DNA from: Chloroflexota bacterium
GTDB lineage: Bacteria; Chloroflexota; Anaerolineae; B4-G1
Direction of reading: 5' to 3'
Length of the DNA: 52,539 bases
Assembly (NCBI GenBank): GCA_024232355.1
Contig: JAAEPW010000501.1
Coordinates: 1-52,539, forward strand
A program made the translations under genes and the position numbers. Positions 4,080-20,735 of the stretch are shown in pieces (the stretch's first letter is position 1; each line of letters starts with the position of its first letter). The notes beneath the pieces were generated by a model. The model made no database searches. It had not been told where the DNA came from and saw only the letters and a program-made list of their open reading frames with translations.

Positions 4080-4739
4080 ATGAACGCTTCTAAAAGTTGG
4101 CCGTCGTTTATTCAACTGTGGGGGCTTTGGATTCTTGTCACGGCCTTGGGTTCGGCGGGAGCTGGCGCTTTAGGTGCTGCTGGTTCAGGAGGTGACCCAG
4201 AGGTATGGGGATTGTTCGGTATGCCTATAGCTTGCTTTACTGGTGGTATCTTTATAGGCATAGGACAAGAGCTAATTCTACACAAAAAAGTACGCAAGAC
4301 TGGACTATGGACACTAGCTACATTTGTTGGTCGCTTTCTTGGGTGGCCAATGGCTGCTGCATCAGTACTGCCCACCAGTATGCTAATAACTTTAGCTATT
4401 GGGCATTCCTGGGTCGAGTGGGAAAGGAATTCTGAATATTTTCAAGTAGCCACTGTACTTGTGGCCGGTGCAATTCTTGGTACGGTTCAGGGGATGGTTT
4501 TGTGTACCAAATTCAAAAGAGTGCATTGGTGGGTTCTGGCATCAAGTATCGGTTGGGCTTTGGGTGTTGTTGCTGAATCGTGGGTTGTGAGAATCCTGGA
4601 GCCCTTTATTCGTTATAATGATGTTGCACTCGTCGCATTTATTGGGTTTGCGTATGGAGCTACCAGTGGAGTTGTTGCGGGAGCTGTTACAGGAGTTGCA
4701 ATGGCACTATTGCTGACCAGAGGAAAATTTCCAGATTGA
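4080..4739 (+). CDS. Integral membrane protein of unknown function
   Basis: 219 residues with about six hydrophobic, Gly/Ala-rich segments (for example IQLWGLWILVTALGSAGAG near the start and VVAGAVTGVAMALLL at the end) and short charged loops such as LHKKVRKTG. I do not recognise a family. The DNA is visibly less G/C-rich than the neighbouring enzymes and there is no good ribosome site right before ATG 4080; AAGGA lies about 29 bases upstream next to the family 2 element. Together these suggest an acquired gene or one whose leader was altered by insertion. Confidence 0.7.
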   Translation: MNASKSWPSFIQLWGLWILVTALGSAGAGALGAAGSGGDPEVWGLFGMPIACFTGGIFIGIGQELILHKKVRKTGLWTLATFVGRFLGWPMAAASVLPTSMLITLAIGHSWVEWERNSEYFQVATVLVAGAILGTVQGMVLCTKFKRVHWWVLASSIGWALGVVAESWVVRILEPFIRYNDVALVAFIGFAYGATSGVVAGAVTGVAMALLLTRGKFPD

Positions 4740-6014: not shown

Positions 6015-6554
6015 TCATAGCCATTCCCGATCGATCTCGATCAACCATTCTTCGTCCAGTACATAATTGCGATAGCTTGAATATGGATAATCCTGTGGCT
6101 GCTCAACCAAATTAGCACGCATCGGATTGCGGTGAATATAATTCAACTTTTGGCGCAAGAAACGCTCCGTATAAATGTTTGTATCCCAGTAGCTGTCTTG
6201 CCAAACCTTGTTCTCACTCCGACCGGTTTCATGTCCTGCTTTGCGAAAGGCTGTGATCCAGTCCTCAATATTCTCGACTTGGGCCTGTCGAATGATCCGC
6301 TTGGAGGTAAAGTGTTTGTAATCTCGCATAATTTCCGAGACAGTGGATTTGCCAAAAGGCCAGATCACGAGATGGATGTGGTCGGGCATGATTACATAGC
6401 CCAGTAGTTTGAATTCTCGTTTGTGGCGATAAAAGTTTAGGCTGTCGAGCAGGGGGACGACAAAGCTGGGACGAGTGAACACGGGGATACGATTGTGAAC
6501 CACGGTAGTGATGTAATAGATGTGCCCCTCGATGTGAAATCTTGGGAGGTTCAT
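6015..6554 (-). CDS. REP-associated tyrosine transposase (RAYT, Y1/TnpA_REP family)
   Basis: 179 residues from ATG 6554, chosen because AAGGA lies about 10 bases upstream; a longer frame to 6596 would begin inside the REP unit. Key motifs: VIMPDHIHLVIWP, the HUH metal site of Y1 transposases, and a C-terminal LNYIHRNPMRANLV...YPYSSYRNY region with the conserved Tyr-bearing helix. RAYTs are single-strand nucleases that recognise and spread REP sequences. REP units flank this gene on both sides, exactly the expected arrangement. Length is typical and the frame is intact, so it may be active. Confidence 0.92.
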   Translation of the reverse strand: MNLPRFHIEGHIYYITTVVHNRIPVFTRPSFVVPLLDSLNFYRHKREFKLLGYVIMPDHIHLVIWPFGKSTVSEIMRDYKHFTSKRIIRQAQVENIEDWITAFRKAGHETGRSENKVWQDSYWDTNIYTERFLRQKLNYIHRNPMRANLVEQPQDYPYSSYRNYVLDEEWLIEIDREWL

Positions 6555-6581
6555 ATTGTGTTGATCCTTATTGTCGAAATC

Positions 6582-6734
6582 AAGGAGTGAGCACACCTAT
6601 GTGCGAGTGGGTTTGGCAAGACCCGCATCGCATTTGGGAATGCTCGCTCCGCGCTCTCAAAACTGAGGAGTGAGCACACCTATGTGCGAACGGGTTTAGC
6701 GGGACCAGTATTGCATTTGGGAATGCTCGCTCCC
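6582..6734. repeat. Two REP units upstream of the RAYT gene (BIME-like cluster)
   Basis: Unit one, 6582-6650, runs GGAGTGAGCACACCTATGTG ... GCGAGTGGGTTT ... GACCCGCATCGCATTTGGGA ... GCTCGCTCC. Unit two, about 6664-6734, repeats the same order with GCGAACGGGTTT in place of GCGAGTGGGTTT. Each unit is itself an inverted pair. They separate the divergently placed RAYT start from the 3' end of the methyltransferase gene. Confidence 0.87.
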
Positions 6735-14985: not shown

Positions 14986-17016
14986 TCACTCGGAGACTGG
15001 CACCACGCACCGAAAGCCCACGTCAATGTTCCGGTAGGTAGGGATGGCGTGGCTGCCTCGGGTAGACGTGCGAGCCATATCTTGCCCGTTCCCATTCATC
15101 CAATCACCCCCGCGCATCACTTTGTGGGTGCCGCTGTCCGGGCCAGGCGGGTTGCTGGATGGCGAGACGCTGTAATAATCTTCCTGGAACCAGTCGTGGA
15201 CCCATTCCTGGACGTTGCCCGCCATGTCGGCGCAGCCGTACGGGCTGTCTCCCTCCGGCGAATAGCTTCCCACTGGCATTGGGCCGCCGACCTCTGATTC
15301 TCTCGTGTTGCACAGGCCGGCACTAAAACTGTTGCTCCACGGGTATTCCCGGCCGTTCGTGCCCCGGGCGGCCTTTTCCCACTCGGCCTCGGTGGGTAGT
15401 CTGCCGCCTCGCCATTCGCAATAGGCTTGCGCATCGAACCAGTTTGCCAAGACCACCGGGTGATCAGCATAGCTCTCATCCGCCTGCCACACGTCGTTCT
15501 GCGGGTACAGGTGGACCCACTGGCTCCTCGCTTTTGGAAACGTGGTGACAATGATGCTATCGGTGCGCTGCTCGTTGAGAAAGGCTGCAAACTGGGCGTT
15601 GGTCACCTCGTACTGGTCGATGTAGAAAGCGTCCAGCATGACCATACGGACCGGCTCGACCAGGTGCCCGATGCCCCCCAACACGAATGGCCCGGCGGAG
15701 ACAAAGACCATCGGCACGCCGCGAGCGTCGGTGGTCCCTTGCACCACAGGGATGTCTGTGGGCTGCGGCGTCAATTGGGAGAGGGGGGCAGTTGTGGGGA
15801 ACAACGTTGTGTTTCCCGTAAGAGGTCTCACCCCCAAAGCAAATATGCAAGGTAACAAAAGCAGTCCTATCAGTGCCAGCAGGACCAGGTAGGTCAGAAA
15901 TTGACGCCTTGTCATTGGTGTTTTGGGTAAAACTCTGGTAGGCTTTCTAATCGGCGAGGCTCGGTACACCGGTTGGACGACAATTTCTGGGGCAGGCGGG
16001 GGCGTGACCGGCTGCCGACGCTGTCGTGGGGCGGCTTGGGTGCGACACTTGGGGCAAGTGTCTGTATAGTTGGAATAATAATGCCCTTGAGGACACGCTG
16101 TCAGGTTGTCCTCTGCTGTGCCTAGGGCTTGCTTCCACTCGCCCGGCGTGGGTCGTGCGCTGGGCTGCTGGTGCCCGTCCGCAAAGCAATGCTGTATCAG
16201 ATTGACCACCTCGGGATGCAGTGTGTCTAGCCCGAGACCAGTCGGGGGTGGGGCGACCGGCCCCGATATGCCCATAAAGTAAGGGAACAATCCCCGGCGG
16301 ATCTTTTCTTCCATCGGCGGCGGATCGCCGCTCCCTAACCACCGCCCTCGAAATGGGTGGTTGCCCTCCATCAACAGTTGAAAGATCAGCACTCCCAAGC
16401 CAAAGTGATCGTGCTCGGGTGTGCGCCGAACCTCTTGAAAGTGCTTTCCCTGCAACTCGGGCGGCGTGTACTCGGGCTTGCCGACGATACAAGGGTAGAA
16501 TGCTTCCGCCGTCTCTACTTGGAACGAGTCGGTGTCGATCAACGTCACCAGCGCCGACGACGTGACCATAATGTTGCTCTCGTGCAGGTCGCCGATGACG
16601 TAATCGCGGGCGTGCAGCGCCTCGACCGCCGCCGCCAGGTTTAGGGCCGTGCGGTGGAGGTAGCGCCGGTCGAATTTGGGCAGTGTCTTTATCCGGAGGC
16701 GCGGGTTAAAGACCTTGAGCGCGGTGACAGCGTTCTGAACGCGGGGCATCAAATAGCCCACGAACACGCCCTTTTCGTCGTAGAGCATCACGATGGGCCA
16801 GGCGAAGGAGGCGTGCTCCGGCTGGTCGGTGGGATCGTTGGGGGGATGGCTCAGCATCCAGGCCAGCTTTTGCTCGTAGATGGCGATGTGGGGCGTGGTG
16901 TAGCGTTTGATCAAATAGTTGGGATGGTCCGCGACGTGGTATACGGCGGACTCACCCCCCTGACCGATCTGGCGTCCAAATTCGACGGGCCTGCGTTTCG
17001 AGTCGTAAACCACCAT
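14986..17016 (-). CDS. TerY-P-type protein kinase fused through a membrane segment to an FGE/SUMF1-like domain
   Basis: 676 residues. Kinase domain about 10-300: glycine loop GQGGESAVY (18-26), Lys37, catalytic loop IGDLHESN (Asp143, Asn148), and DTD (161-163) in place of DFG. Next comes a zinc-ribbon-like C308PQGH...C321PKC324 segment and a Pro-rich linker, then one membrane helix (372-395) and a Pro/Thr stretch. Residues 430-673 are a formylglycine-generating-enzyme/C-type-lectin-like domain (FYIDQYEVTNAQFAAF, GGRLPTEAEWEKAARG, GNVQEWVHDW, DVGFRC). The paired catalytic Cys of true FGEs are not seen near GGDWMNGNG, so the domain is probably a ligand-binding sensor outside the membrane. It starts 12 bases after the PP2C gene in the order vWA-PP2C-kinase. 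Confidence 0.88.
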   Translation of the reverse strand: MVVYDSKRRPVEFGRQIGQGGESAVYHVADHPNYLIKRYTTPHIAIYEQKLAWMLSHPPNDPTDQPEHASFAWPIVMLYDEKGVFVGYLMPRVQNAVTALKVFNPRLRIKTLPKFDRRYLHRTALNLAAAVEALHARDYVIGDLHESNIMVTSSALVTLIDTDSFQVETAEAFYPCIVGKPEYTPPELQGKHFQEVRRTPEHDHFGLGVLIFQLLMEGNHPFRGRWLGSGDPPPMEEKIRRGLFPYFMGISGPVAPPPTGLGLDTLHPEVVNLIQHCFADGHQQPSARPTPGEWKQALGTAEDNLTACPQGHYYSNYTDTCPKCRTQAAPRQRRQPVTPPPAPEIVVQPVYRASPIRKPTRVLPKTPMTRRQFLTYLVLLALIGLLLLPCIFALGVRPLTGNTTLFPTTAPLSQLTPQPTDIPVVQGTTDARGVPMVFVSAGPFVLGGIGHLVEPVRMVMLDAFYIDQYEVTNAQFAAFLNEQRTDSIIVTTFPKARSQWVHLYPQNDVWQADESYADHPVVLANWFDAQAYCEWRGGRLPTEAEWEKAARGTNGREYPWSNSFSAGLCNTRESEVGGPMPVGSYSPEGDSPYGCADMAGNVQEWVHDWFQEDYYSVSPSSNPPGPDSGTHKVMRGGDWMNGNGQDMARTSTRGSHAIPTYRNIDVGFRCVVPVSE

Positions 17017-17028
17017 AGAGGGGGTTTC

Positions 17029-17796
17029 TCACCACCTGTCGGGAACGGAAACCGCCAGTACCAGCGTTTTGTCATCGTCGGTACGGGCAGAGACCCGTTC
17101 GGAGGCCAGGAAGGCGGCCAATTGCTCCTGGGCTTTTTTCTCATCCTCCATCTCGGTCGCAAACTTGAGCAGAGGCTGGAAAAAGGGCGTATGGGGCGCA
17201 TTGTCGACGGCGTTCACCGCCAAGCGTACCACGCCGTCGGACATCAGTACCAGGGTCTGGACCGGGGGGTAGACGTGAACCTGGAGTTGGTCGAGGGCGC
17301 CTTTCATCGTCAGAAAAAAGGTCTCGTTGGCATATTCCCCGCGTTGGAGCTGGGTGGCGACAAAGAGCGGGTCATCCGGGCCTTTTTGGGCGACGGCGAG
17401 GCAGTCCCCGATCTGCCCCACGGCCAACCCTTCGTTGGATGCGACGGCACAGGTCAGGGTGGCGGCGAAATCTCGCGCCGAATCATTTTGCCACCGAGCG
17501 TGCCCGACAATGTCCTCGCGGGCCTGGCGGAACGCGGCGTTCATCAACTGCTGCCACTCGAATTCGGTTCGCGGCACGTTGTACGCCAGGTCCCGTTCCA
17601 GCGAGTCGAGCGCTTGCTTGACGGCCCGTTGCGCGCCTTCGTCCGATCGGCTGGCTGTGCCTGCGCCATCGGCCACGGCGACCACGACCGCGCCATTCAG
17701 CAAGACCCGGTGGCCGTGCGCGTCTTGGCAGGGGATGTCGTTCTTTTCATGGGATGTGCCCGGCACCGATGCCCCAACGACGTGCCACTTGCTCAT
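17029..17796 (-). CDS. PP2C-family serine/threonine phosphatase of the vWA-PP2C-kinase triad
   Basis: 255 residues from ATG 17796 (MSKWHVVG), whose ATGA overlaps the vWA stop; a longer upstream frame is only vWA sequence out of phase. PP2C metal motifs are intact: VVAVADGAGTASRSDEGA (Asp43), FAATLTCAV, GQIGDCLAV, LVLMSDGVVRL and TDDDKTLVLAVS. The N-terminal GASVPGTSHEKNDIPCQDA resembles the PP2C of TerY-P triads. It probably reverses phosphorylation by the adjacent kinase. Confidence 0.9.
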   Translation of the reverse strand: MSKWHVVGASVPGTSHEKNDIPCQDAHGHRVLLNGAVVVAVADGAGTASRSDEGAQRAVKQALDSLERDLAYNVPRTEFEWQQLMNAAFRQAREDIVGHARWQNDSARDFAATLTCAVASNEGLAVGQIGDCLAVAQKGPDDPLFVATQLQRGEYANETFFLTMKGALDQLQVHVYPPVQTLVLMSDGVVRLAVNAVDNAPHTPFFQPLLKFATEMEDEKKAQEQLAAFLASERVSARTDDDKTLVLAVSVPDRW

Positions 17797-18536
17797 TCGA
17801 ACCGGCTCGTGTCGGGGATCAGGTCCGAACCGAACGTGGCCCAACTCAGATCGGGCAGCGGCACCTGGACGCCCGGCGTGGAATGGGCCACCACCGACAG
17901 GCTCTTGGACAGCCACTGGAACAGCTCGCCAAAGGCCAGTTCCTTGAGCTGGAACGGCGGCCTGTCAAAGGGGGTGAATTGGGCCAGCGTCGCCATCACG
18001 GCGTCCGTGGTGCCGATGCCGTAAAAGCTCACGCCCTTGCGGTCTTCTTCCTCCCGCACTTGCTGGGCGGCCTGCTGCCACTCGTCGGTCGGTTGGCCGT
18101 CGGTGATGAGGAACATCCAAGGGCGGTAATAGTCCAGCCCGTTCTGTTTGTAGATGTCCTTGCGCTCTCGCAGCAGCGTCAGGCTCCGGCGAACGGCCTC
18201 GCCCATCGGCGTGGGGCCGCCAGCCGCCAATATCGGCGGGCGAAAACCGTCCACGGTGACGAATGCTTGATTGGCGTCGAACTGGACCGGTTGCGCCGCG
18301 CCGCTGCGGACGTCGATAGCGTGGACTCTACCCCCAAAGGTGACGATGGCGACCTCGACCCGCAAGGCGGCCAGGTGGTCTCCTTTCAGGGCCTGGTCAA
18401 AAGCGCGCAAGCCCTCGTTCAATTGATCGATCGGCTCGCCTTTCATAGACCCCGACGTGTCCAGGAGCAGCACGACCGGGCAGCGTGGTTCGGGATTGTC
18501 TGCGAATTCGGCCTGTTCAAGCAGTATATTGCTCAT
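17793..18536 (-). CDS. TerY-like von Willebrand factor A domain protein
   Basis: 247 residues from ATG 18536 (MSNILLEQ); GGAGG lies 5 bases ahead, while the ATG three bases earlier would be too close to that site. One vWA domain with an intact MIDAS: DTSGSM (26-31), the Thr motif GGPTPMGEA and the Asp motif LITDGQPTDE. VVLLLDTSGSMKGEPIDQLN and the following helix are characteristic of TerY. Metal-dependent protein-binding module, first gene of the triad, coupled to PP2C by ATGA. Ter-linked and antiphage roles are reported for related triads. Confidence 0.92.
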   Translation of the reverse strand: MSNILLEQAEFADNPEPRCPVVLLLDTSGSMKGEPIDQLNEGLRAFDQALKGDHLAALRVEVAIVTFGGRVHAIDVRSGAAQPVQFDANQAFVTVDGFRPPILAAGGPTPMGEAVRRSLTLLRERKDIYKQNGLDYYRPWMFLITDGQPTDEWQQAAQQVREEEDRKGVSFYGIGTTDAVMATLAQFTPFDRPPFQLKELAFGELFQWLSKSLSVVAHSTPGVQVPLPDLSWATFGSDLIPDTSRFE

Positions 18537-18599
18537 CATAACCTCCACTGGGGTGATTTTAGATTGGTTGATTTTAGATTGAGAGATATTTGTAGGTAA

Positions 18600-18830: not shown

Positions 18831-19703
18831 TTATTTTCCCCAGAAACCATACGTACGAGAAACGTCAGGAAATGGTACTATCTCGTAAGAAATATCTGTA
18901 TAATCGCCTACGCCATACTCCAAGAGGCCCGCCGTTGCATTTCTCAGTCGAATCTCTTGATCCTCTTCCAGGAACAAAAACCACCAGGTAGACTCCAATC
19001 CCTGAATCTTGGTCCAGACTGTGATTCGATAGTTATAATACCAATAATCAGAGCTCCCTTTGGCTGCAGCCCAAGGCCCATCCTCTCTGCGCCAATCATA
19101 GAAGGCGACATCATCTTCGATGTGATTGGGTAACGTCATCAACACCAACGCCTTGGCGACTAGCTCGCGGTTCTCTGCGGTGATGACGACGTCGTTTACC
19201 TTGAGCAACTCGTTGAAGGTATCGGCGGTGTAGCATTGGTCGTCTTGCCAAGCTACCAATCTGGTGCGACGGTAATAGTCGTGCTCAGGCTCTTGATAGC
19301 GACCTGTCAGCCCAATCACGTAGAAACTTGTGTCAAGAAACAACTGCTTCCACTCTGGCCGTACAATCAGTTGGATGGAATCAGGCCATACACAAGCTTT
19401 AACTTTTCCACTTTCAAATGCTTGTTCGCACTCTGTTCGCGTTGGGCTGTAGTTGCTGTACTCTTGTCCTACAGCCGCTGCCGCTTTTTCTCTTTTTGTC
19501 AGCGTGGGAGTAGGTGCTGGTGTGGCGCTGGCAGTTGGTGTGAGCGCCCGTGTAGTGGTCTGGGGCACGGTGGAGTTTGGCGTCACAGGTGGGGTGTGTT
19601 CTTGCTGGCTGTTGCACCCGGCCAACAGCGTCGATGCGCCTAGGAATAATCCCACGCCCAGTACGAGCATTATTGTGTTGACGAGTTGTGATTTGGTTTT
19701 CAT
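18831..19703 (-). CDS. Secreted lipoprotein, member of a local paralogous family
   Basis: 290 residues. Signal peptide with lipobox LLAGC (Cys30), then a Thr/Pro-rich stretch (TPTASATPAPTPTLT) and a C-terminal domain with EWKQLFLDTSFYVIGL, TADTFNELLKVNDVV, AENRELVAKALVLMTLPNHIEDDV and WTKIQGLESTWWF. The last two blocks are closely shared with the next gene upstream. Function unknown; extracytoplasmic. The A/T-richer composition than flanking enzymes hints at acquisition or lineage-specific expansion. Confidence 0.8.
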   Translation of the reverse strand: MKTKSQLVNTIMLVLGVGLFLGASTLLAGCNSQQEHTPPVTPNSTVPQTTTRALTPTASATPAPTPTLTKREKAAAAVGQEYSNYSPTRTECEQAFESGKVKACVWPDSIQLIVRPEWKQLFLDTSFYVIGLTGRYQEPEHDYYRRTRLVAWQDDQCYTADTFNELLKVNDVVITAENRELVAKALVLMTLPNHIEDDVAFYDWRREDGPWAAAKGSSDYWYYNYRITVWTKIQGLESTWWFLFLEEDQEIRLRNATAGLLEYGVGDYTDISYEIVPFPDVSRTYGFWGK

Positions 19704-19706
19704 TTG

Positions 19707-20474
19707 TTATTCTCCACGAAAGTAGTAGTGTTGGGTTGAAGGAATAGGCAGTTCAAGAAAGAACACGTCAATATAGTCCCCGATATTAGACTCAACAACC
19801 CTAAATCTCGTAGCAGCTCTTAACCGATTATCATTGAATGCAAACCACCACCAAATCTCCAAACCCTGGATTTTCGTCCAGGCTTTTAAATAGTTGGTAT
19901 ATATCAATAGCCCAGAATCCCACTCGCCCACATCCCACTCAGTGAAAACAACCTCTTCTTCGAGATAGTCGGGAATGGTCATAAGCGCGAACGCCTTGGC
20001 GACCAGTTCGCGGTTCTCGTCAGTGATGGCGGTGACACCATTGGCCTTTAGCAAGCGGTCAAAAGTCTCGGCGGTGTAGTGTTGGTCGTCATACTCGATG
20101 ATGAGCCAGTCACGTGGTCCTCCCCCATCCCCAGGTTCTCCTCCAGGCACCAGATAGCTCTTTACCAAAAAGAACTCGGTTTGGGGAAGTAATTCTTCCC
20201 ACTCGGTACGTGTGATAGGTGCCGCGGACTTGATCACGCTGCACGACAATTCGGTTTCAAGAGTTTTACCGCACTCGTCCATTGAAAATGTGACCTGGCC
20301 CCTTGGTTGTATCAATTCTCGCGCCAGCGCCTCGCCTGGCCTCAATGTTGGTGTGGGTTTGGGTCTAGCTATGAATGTGAATAGCCTTCCACGCTGCATG
20401 AATGCCACTGCCAGCACCATGGCGCTTGTGGCGAGTAGTGCTGCGATCAGGATTGATCGGGTTTTGGTGTTCAT
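19707..20474 (-). CDS. Secreted or membrane-anchored paralogue of the lipoprotein at 18831-19703
   Basis: 255 residues from ATG 20474 (MNTKTRSILIAALLATS), which has AGAGGT about 7 bases upstream. One N-terminal hydrophobic segment without a lipobox Cys, then a short Pro/Thr linker (PKPTPTLRPG) and a domain sharing ITDENRELVAKAFALMTIPDYLEEEVVF and WTKIQGLE with its neighbour (in short blocks). Unknown function. The two genes are 3 bases apart and probably cotranscribed. The 343 bases upstream hold only the add promoter and a partial GACCTGGCAGGTC palindrome at about 20719-20732. Confidence 0.78.
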   Translation of the reverse strand: MNTKTRSILIAALLATSAMVLAVAFMQRGRLFTFIARPKPTPTLRPGEALARELIQPRGQVTFSMDECGKTLETELSCSVIKSAAPITRTEWEELLPQTEFFLVKSYLVPGGEPGDGGGPRDWLIIEYDDQHYTAETFDRLLKANGVTAITDENRELVAKAFALMTIPDYLEEEVVFTEWDVGEWDSGLLIYTNYLKAWTKIQGLEIWWWFAFNDNRLRAATRFRVVESNIGDYIDVFFLELPIPSTQHYYFRGE

Positions 20475-20735
20475 CGTATTACCTCTTGCCAAGTTGTCTT
20501 GGTCACGCAAAGATTACCACGGATATGGAAATACACGATGTTTAGCCGCCGAGACACAATGATCGTGTATTTCTTCATCCGAGGTAGTCTTTTTCCACAA
20601 GTACAATTCCACGCTTCGAGTACACCTATCTATTACATGCGGTTTCCGTCGAAAAGTTCACCCGTATTCCTGATGACTTGAGTATAGTACATTCAGGAAA
20701 AAAATGCCATGGGGCGAGAACCTGGCAGGTCTTGA

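Follow-up and report, generated by a model that had tools for sequence, protein, structure and literature searches.

A TerY-P-type vWA-PP2C-kinase triad with a predicted FGE-fold ectodomain on its kinase in a Chloroflexota bacterium

A TerY-P triad whose kinase carries an FGE-fold domain

The stretch of DNA analysed here (the window, 52,539 nucleotides of contig JAAEPW010000501.1 from a Chloroflexota bacterium) carries on its minus strand, at 18536-14986, three adjacent and co-oriented genes encoding a von Willebrand factor A (vWA) protein, a PP2C phosphatase and a protein kinase, confirming what a first-pass annotation had observed. By sequence homology all three proteins are of TerY-P type, a triad that a passage of PMC11090510 describes as a TerY-like vWA protein, a PP2C phosphatase and a kinase with a C-terminal zinc ribbon. 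What sets the window triad apart is a domain with the fold of the formylglycine-generating enzyme (FGE) at the end of the kinase. Our preferred interpretation, which we hold with a probability of about 0.6, is that the TerY-P phospho-switch has been turned into a one-pass, ligand-gated receptor kinase that would be reset by the PP2C phosphatase.

The vWA gene (17793..18536, minus strand; YegL/TerY type, 247 amino acids) has an intact metal ion-dependent adhesion site (MIDAS) and an alternative ATG at 18539, and its product is 50% identical to Escherichia coli YegL. The PP2C gene (17029..17796, minus strand; PphC type, 255 amino acids) matches PP2C_2 with 157 bits, retains the metal-binding Asp motifs and encodes a protein 35% identical to PphC; its ATG overlaps the vWA stop codon (ATGA) and 12 bp separate it from the kinase gene (14986..17016, minus strand; 676 amino acids), which has a kinase-zinc ribbon-transmembrane-FGE architecture. 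The kinase is 31% identical to E. coli YegI over residues 3-324, the Cys motif of the zinc ribbon included, and the earlier assignment of the genes to the TerY-P type is borne out by these three matches.

Within the kinase-FGE protein, the kinase domain (residues 1-305; 16102..17016) has K37, E48, D143, N148 and D161 intact and is followed by the Cys motif CPQGH..CPKC (residues 308-324; 16045..16095), a zinc ribbon in which zinc binding is a prediction. Then come a single predicted membrane helix whose positively charged flank is on the kinase side (residues 378-396; 15829..15885), a Pro/Thr-rich stalk (residues 397-432; 15721..15828; pLDDT <50 over 395-417) and the FGE-fold, C-type-lectin-like domain (residues 433-676, 244 residues; 14989..15720), all encoded on the minus strand. 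A predicted structure model supported the FGE fold. Cysteines within residues 420-676 occur only at 533, 569, 595 and 670, the FGE active-site pair was not found among them and the alignment agrees; the window domain is thus not filed as an FGE enzyme, and its earlier description as a C-type-lectin-type fold devoid of the paired FGE cysteines holds. Judging from the charge bias around the predicted helix, the FGE domain would face outwards, which supports, as a prediction, the previously proposed outside sensor coupled to a kinase/phosphatase pair.

With residues 1-420 as query, 2138 of the 7996 candidates scored were homologues, and the best 120 were examined. Ten FGE proteins among these, the window protein included, form one clade, and each has one helix between zinc ribbon and FGE domain. 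Mean pairwise identity in the clade was 76% for the kinase, 65% for the FGE core and 40% for a variable-region-like loop of the FGE domain (residues 638-666; 15019..15105, minus strand), with the linker (33%) and the helix (21%) even less conserved than the loop; a loop changing this fast fits ligand binding, but is no proof of it. Extra sequence behind the FGE domain was found in five clade members, CARDB-like by eye in P0006-P0009 and partial in P0004. Hypervariation within the clade was also considered: P0008 and P0009 differ at four sites in 644-650, but with the loop 85% and the core 93% identical this candidate was not used.

Repeated association of FGE domains with TerY-P kinases

The tail of the kinase appears exchangeable across the family. 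In a simple hydropathy scan of the same best 120 homologues, one helix was found behind the kinase in 25 proteins, several in 35 and none in 60, and the tails include zinc-ribbon arrays, WD40, TPR, polytopic membrane parts and FGE; a leucine-rich repeat (LRR) tail and a YegI-like tail were seen by eye in fetched loci. Such diversity of tails on one kinase is as would be expected of a sensor slot. Of 25 loci, 11 have both a vWA and a PP2C gene immediately next to the kinase gene and two more have PP2C only, some of the others being truncated by contig ends; both genes also adjoin the kinase in 5 of the 7 loci from the order of genome G002 (see below). The triad is thus frequent among these kinases, not universal. 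Tandem arrangements also occur: P0237 has two TerY-P-type kinases in a row, each with its zinc ribbon, and ends in a helix and an LRR tail, and locus L123 (genome G166, contig C135) has three tandem TerY-P-type kinases with TPR, helix-bearing and LRR tails, as read by eye.

A profile search with the ten-member clade gave 1786 matches among 7996 candidates scored, and the best 120 contained 13 further TerY-P-type kinases with FGE (P0238-P0250, BLAST-checked), 8 of them with a helix between kinase and FGE. FGE-bearing TerY-P-type kinases thus number at least 23. One of the relatives, P0247, is a single open frame that joins a PP2C fragment, a TerY-P kinase, a zinc ribbon, two helices and an FGE domain; the fragment suggests that PP2C lies next to the kinase in this lineage. 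In P0241, P0244 and P0246, protein comparison gave 77-100% identity in the kinase blocks and 39-57% in the last FGE block, which is no more than suggestive of hypervariation.

In a kinase tree of 89 rows, made of all 23 FGE-fused proteins and 66 others hand-picked from fetched sequences, the FGE label needs seven changes (6-7 over the bootstraps), at least five of them forced by starred branches, and none of 200 bootstrap trees (0%) grouped the FGE-fused kinases as a single clade. The FGE tree, built from 74 domains (24 TerY-P-linked ones and a chosen sample), likewise needs seven changes of the TerY-P link (bootstrap 7-8), at least six of them forced, with one clade in 0%; the TerY-P-linked domains are scattered among FGE domains of conventional kinases, TIR proteins and caspase proteins. 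Changes in these trees may be gains or losses, the bootstraps are not fully settled and some rows of the FGE tree are long-branched. The FGE-type sensor was probably added to the TerY-P switch several times, as the FGE tree argues for separate recruitments; one gain followed by many losses appears less likely. The recurrence of the fusion in relatives and in both trees speaks against an artefactual joining of neighbouring genes, which the first-pass annotation had named as a way to refute its proposal.

A search with the FGE domain only gave 7903 matches among 8000 candidates scored, and the best 120 included FGE domains on 19 conventional kinases and on 11 TIR proteins.

Fused kinases were also sought in species genomes. 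The kinase was detected at E 1e-60 in 18 of 396 genomes of the class, where the stretches read held no fusion and one split version (locus L003, genome G002), and at E 1e-100 in 2 of 400 genomes of the phylum (G002 and G042), neither of them fused. In the order of G002 it was detected at E 1e-70 in 8 of 390 genomes; among the seven besides G002, one carries a fusion without helix (G1411, locus L237) and no FGE match was found in the others. Cyanobacteriota had the kinase at E 1e-120 in 57 of 339 genomes, with no listed match past query position 452 of 662, and the 20 kinases read carry polytopic or one-helix tails. A search without positive control found the kinase in none of 52 genomes of G752's class, and no kinase relative was found in viral_contigs. 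The vWA protein (phrog_28389, 212 bits) and kinase residues 4-325 (phrog_37888, 147 bits) each match a functionally uncharacterised PHROGs family, so that YegL/YegI-like genes are also present in records filed as phage or prophage.

A split relative in a genome with diversity-generating retroelements

In L003 (CAIQJJ010000022.1, from an uncultured Anaerolineales metagenome-assembled genome, MAG) the vWA gene comes first, followed by PP2C, the kinase with zinc ribbons and a separate FGE gene, which starts 7 bp behind the kinase stop, after AGGAGAG. Read by eye, the product of this gene begins with a zinc-ribbon-like segment and has a membrane helix; an FGE domain follows, in whose variable loop the contig ends. 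The same genome gave 24 FGE matches and 5 reverse transcriptase matches. On contig C761 (L194) a variable region (395-500) and a template (4491-4596) lie on the same contig as a reverse transcriptase, with 15 of 15 mismatches at template adenines and one gap codon (hypergeometric 2e-11). For the pair C850/C618, 17 of 19 mismatches fall at template adenines (9e-10); two such adenine-directed pairs indicate that diversity-generating retroelements (DGRs) are present in G002. An SQ motif is typical of DGR reverse transcriptases, and the IGNLTSQ carried by the frames on C518, C761 and C863 fits it.

The loop class of L003 also occurs in G002 on FGE domains of two CHAT proteins, one TIR, one AAA/TPR and one NACHT protein, the NACHT call scoring 26.4 bits, just below the cut-off of 26.7. 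Differences by codon position were counted for six pairs that share members, and one-sided Fisher tests were applied to four of them. Between C135 and C437 the loop gave 8/7/0 differences at positions 1/2/3 vs 56/61/95 upstream (p 2e-4). The L003 domain (C22), which all three of the following non-independent comparisons share, gave 9/7/3 vs 25/30/58 against C135 (p 0.003), 6/3/3 vs 20/24/68 against C740 (p 0.02) and 7/7/3 vs 54/58/88 against C437 (p 0.03). The remaining loop counts were 4/4/0 for C740-C135 and 12/7/9 for C437-C461, a weaker case. Relative to the rest of the FGE domain, the differences in the L003 loop thus lie mostly at codon positions 1 and 2, a DGR-type pattern, and the loop resembles sensors rewritten by a DGR. 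Close to contig ends, four FGE matches in G002 (C22, C740, C793 and C139) break off at profile position 236, the pattern that an assembly interrupted by shared variable regions would leave.

A DGR link of L003 is weakened by the three third-position differences in each of its loop comparisons and by the lack of a template of its loop class among the matches in G002, the L003 contig itself ending inside the loop. Moreover, the DGR parts and L003 are on different contigs, and since the MAG is fragmented a binning error is possible.

Proposed mechanism

Gene order, domains, motifs, family membership, predicted fold and the recurrence of FGE were obtained from the analysis; the outside location, the ligand gating and the role of the vWA protein are what we infer beyond it. 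In the receptor-kinase interpretation, the outward-facing, non-catalytic FGE/C-type-lectin-fold domain would bind a ligand through its variable loop, and binding would alter how the membrane-held kinase assembles and thereby its (auto)phosphorylation. The PP2C phosphatase would reset the kinase, by analogy with the E. coli homologues, for which alone such an opposition is known: an excerpt of PMC13232886 presents YegI as a membrane-bound, autophosphorylating Ser/Thr kinase that PphC dephosphorylates. The vWA protein might dock or scaffold its partners through the MIDAS. Since YegI is already membrane-bound, membrane anchoring of a TerY-P kinase is not new, and the earlier suggestion that such anchoring is undescribed was not supported. 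No description of this switch with an FGE ectodomain was found in the literature searched.

Several observations weigh against this interpretation. A helix between kinase and FGE was not found in 5 of the 13 fused relatives outside the clade (P0239, P0243, P0246, P0249 and P0250), and one of these helix-less fusions, L237 (= P0249), showed neither a vWA nor a PP2C match over the 12 kb examined, so that neither membrane nor triad is obligatory for the fusion. The vWA and PP2C neighbours were read for one of the ten clade members, namely the window. P0002, which is 82% identical to the window protein, has Asn at the catalytic Asp (GNLHESN); kinase activity may not be needed everywhere, or the P0002 sequence may be faulty.

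Surroundings of the triad and alternative interpretations

The window holds 82 open reading frames of at least 150 amino acids, many of them overlapping shadows, and 43 proteins were scanned with Pfam. The neighbours among those scanned are ordinary (e.g. KDPG aldolase, PfkB, adenosine deaminase, CobO, release factor, GMP synthase, MTHFR), and the only mobile-element gene among the scanned proteins is an IS200-like transposase (Y1_Tnp, 37.6 bits; 6015-6596, minus strand). Two paralogous genes upstream of the triad (18831-19703 and 19707-20510, minus strand) encode proteins of secreted or lipoprotein-like type that share 39% identity; with no Pfam match and no match in 153 fetched loci, they were left out as members of the system. 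This metabolic neighbourhood, together with a LytR-CpsA-Psr protein about 30 kb from the triad, would fit an alternative in which the FGE domain is a fixed anchor binding wall or self glycans and the triad a housekeeping envelope or growth switch, comparable to the PASTA kinases, rather than a sensor of foreign molecules. The extra domain behind FGE in five relatives agrees with such a switch, as does the lack of a retroelement template in the window: blastn with the loop and an adenine-tolerant template scan found no template-like repeat there, the best match having 18 non-A mismatches in 70 vs 17-19 in five shuffled controls, and a DGR inside the window was rejected. Loop 638-666, one of the most divergent stretches of the FGE domain, and the TIR and CHAT domains among the FGE partners in relatives count against a housekeeping role, which we consider unlikely while granting it serious weight.

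An anti-phage or conflict system resembling kinase-OB TerY-P-like modules, with FGE as the sensor of the invader, is a rather doubtful alternative. According to a passage of PMC11090510, the OB-fold modules are stand-alone antiphage systems, part of PMC8195603 proposes FGS/FGE domains as invader sensors, and the FGE domain of the split relative shares its variable-region class with CHAT, TIR, NACHT and AAA proteins. Against it, the operon contains no effector, no defence family was recognised among the 43 proteins scanned, and the PADLOC hits were partial, mainly to kinase domains, with 33 bits at best; the phage link suggested for this locus by the first-pass annotation was not supported. The same 43 proteins included no recognised CoCoNuT, restriction or tellurite gene and no reverse transcriptase.

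FGE-type enzymes without the cysteine pair exist, PvdO being one, and it is very improbable that the domain is such an enzyme, modifying envelope proteins and merely co-regulated through the fusion, given that the C-x4-C pair occurs in none of 116 FGE matches (the best 120 of 7903 minus P0001-P0004), so that its absence is ordinary in this set and no hint of FGE catalysis comes from the close family, and that the loop carrying the cysteines in FGE is highly variable here.

The repeated recruitment of one ligand-binding fold in the preferred receptor-kinase interpretation offers a direct handle on what TerY-P kinases sense: the ectodomain could be expressed and screened for ligands, with autophosphorylation as the read-out of the switch. 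If the link between L003 and DGRs were true, hypervariable bacterial sensors would have TerY-P as a further output besides CHAT, TIR and NACHT proteins. As a speculative extension, in which we place little confidence, TerY-P triads might serve as the read-out of hypervariable surface FGE receptors, rewritten by DGRs in some lineages, in a form of receptor-kinase immunity of which the window would be a fused member and L003 one still diversifying.

Comparison with known systems

No publication linking FGE or DGRs to a TerY-P triad was found in the literature searched; the founding TerY-P paper (PMC4104200), outside that coverage, may mention such fusions. DGR-diversified FGE/C-type-lectin sensors in conflict systems are described in part of PMC10907252. 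From these sensors (TvpA and conflict-system targets) the window differs in that neither template nor reverse transcriptase was seen in it, and the DGR signature was seen only in the relative G002/L003.

Kinases with a C-terminal DUF323 (FGE) domain in Chlamydiae (excerpt of PMC1262709) and kinase-C-type-lectin fusions diversified by DGRs in cyanobacteria (excerpt of PMC7517822) resemble the window protein, as do the conventional kinase-transmembrane-FGE proteins of Chloroflexota, in joining a kinase to a C-terminal FGE-type domain. All 19 conventional kinases with FGE in our search have a predicted helix. They differ in their HRD and DFG motifs and in lacking a zinc ribbon, as judged from the first 330-360 residues of two sequences, and we know of no vWA/PP2C triad accompanying conventional kinase-FGE proteins.

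The third GAP1-N2 theme of PMC7159879, a kinase-zinc ribbon protein with a transmembrane or beta domain plus PP2C and vWA, is close; it was rejected as the same system, being described there as confined to actinobacteria and GAP1-N2 neighbourhoods and as having no FGE on the kinase. The yegL-pphC-yegI genes of E. coli K-12 encode homologous vWA, PP2C and kinase-zinc ribbon proteins (50, 35 and 31% identity), with yegL and pphC adjacent and, according to the excerpt of PMC13232886, a membrane-bound kinase. They differ in that yegJ sits between pphC and yegI and in that YegI has no significant homology to the window kinase beyond residue 324, hence no FGE domain was found in it. The TerY-P triads of CoCoNuT and other systems, as far as the passage of PMC11090510 describes them, have the same vWA, PP2C and kinase with C-terminal zinc ribbon, and the window kinase differs from theirs by the addition of the FGE domain.

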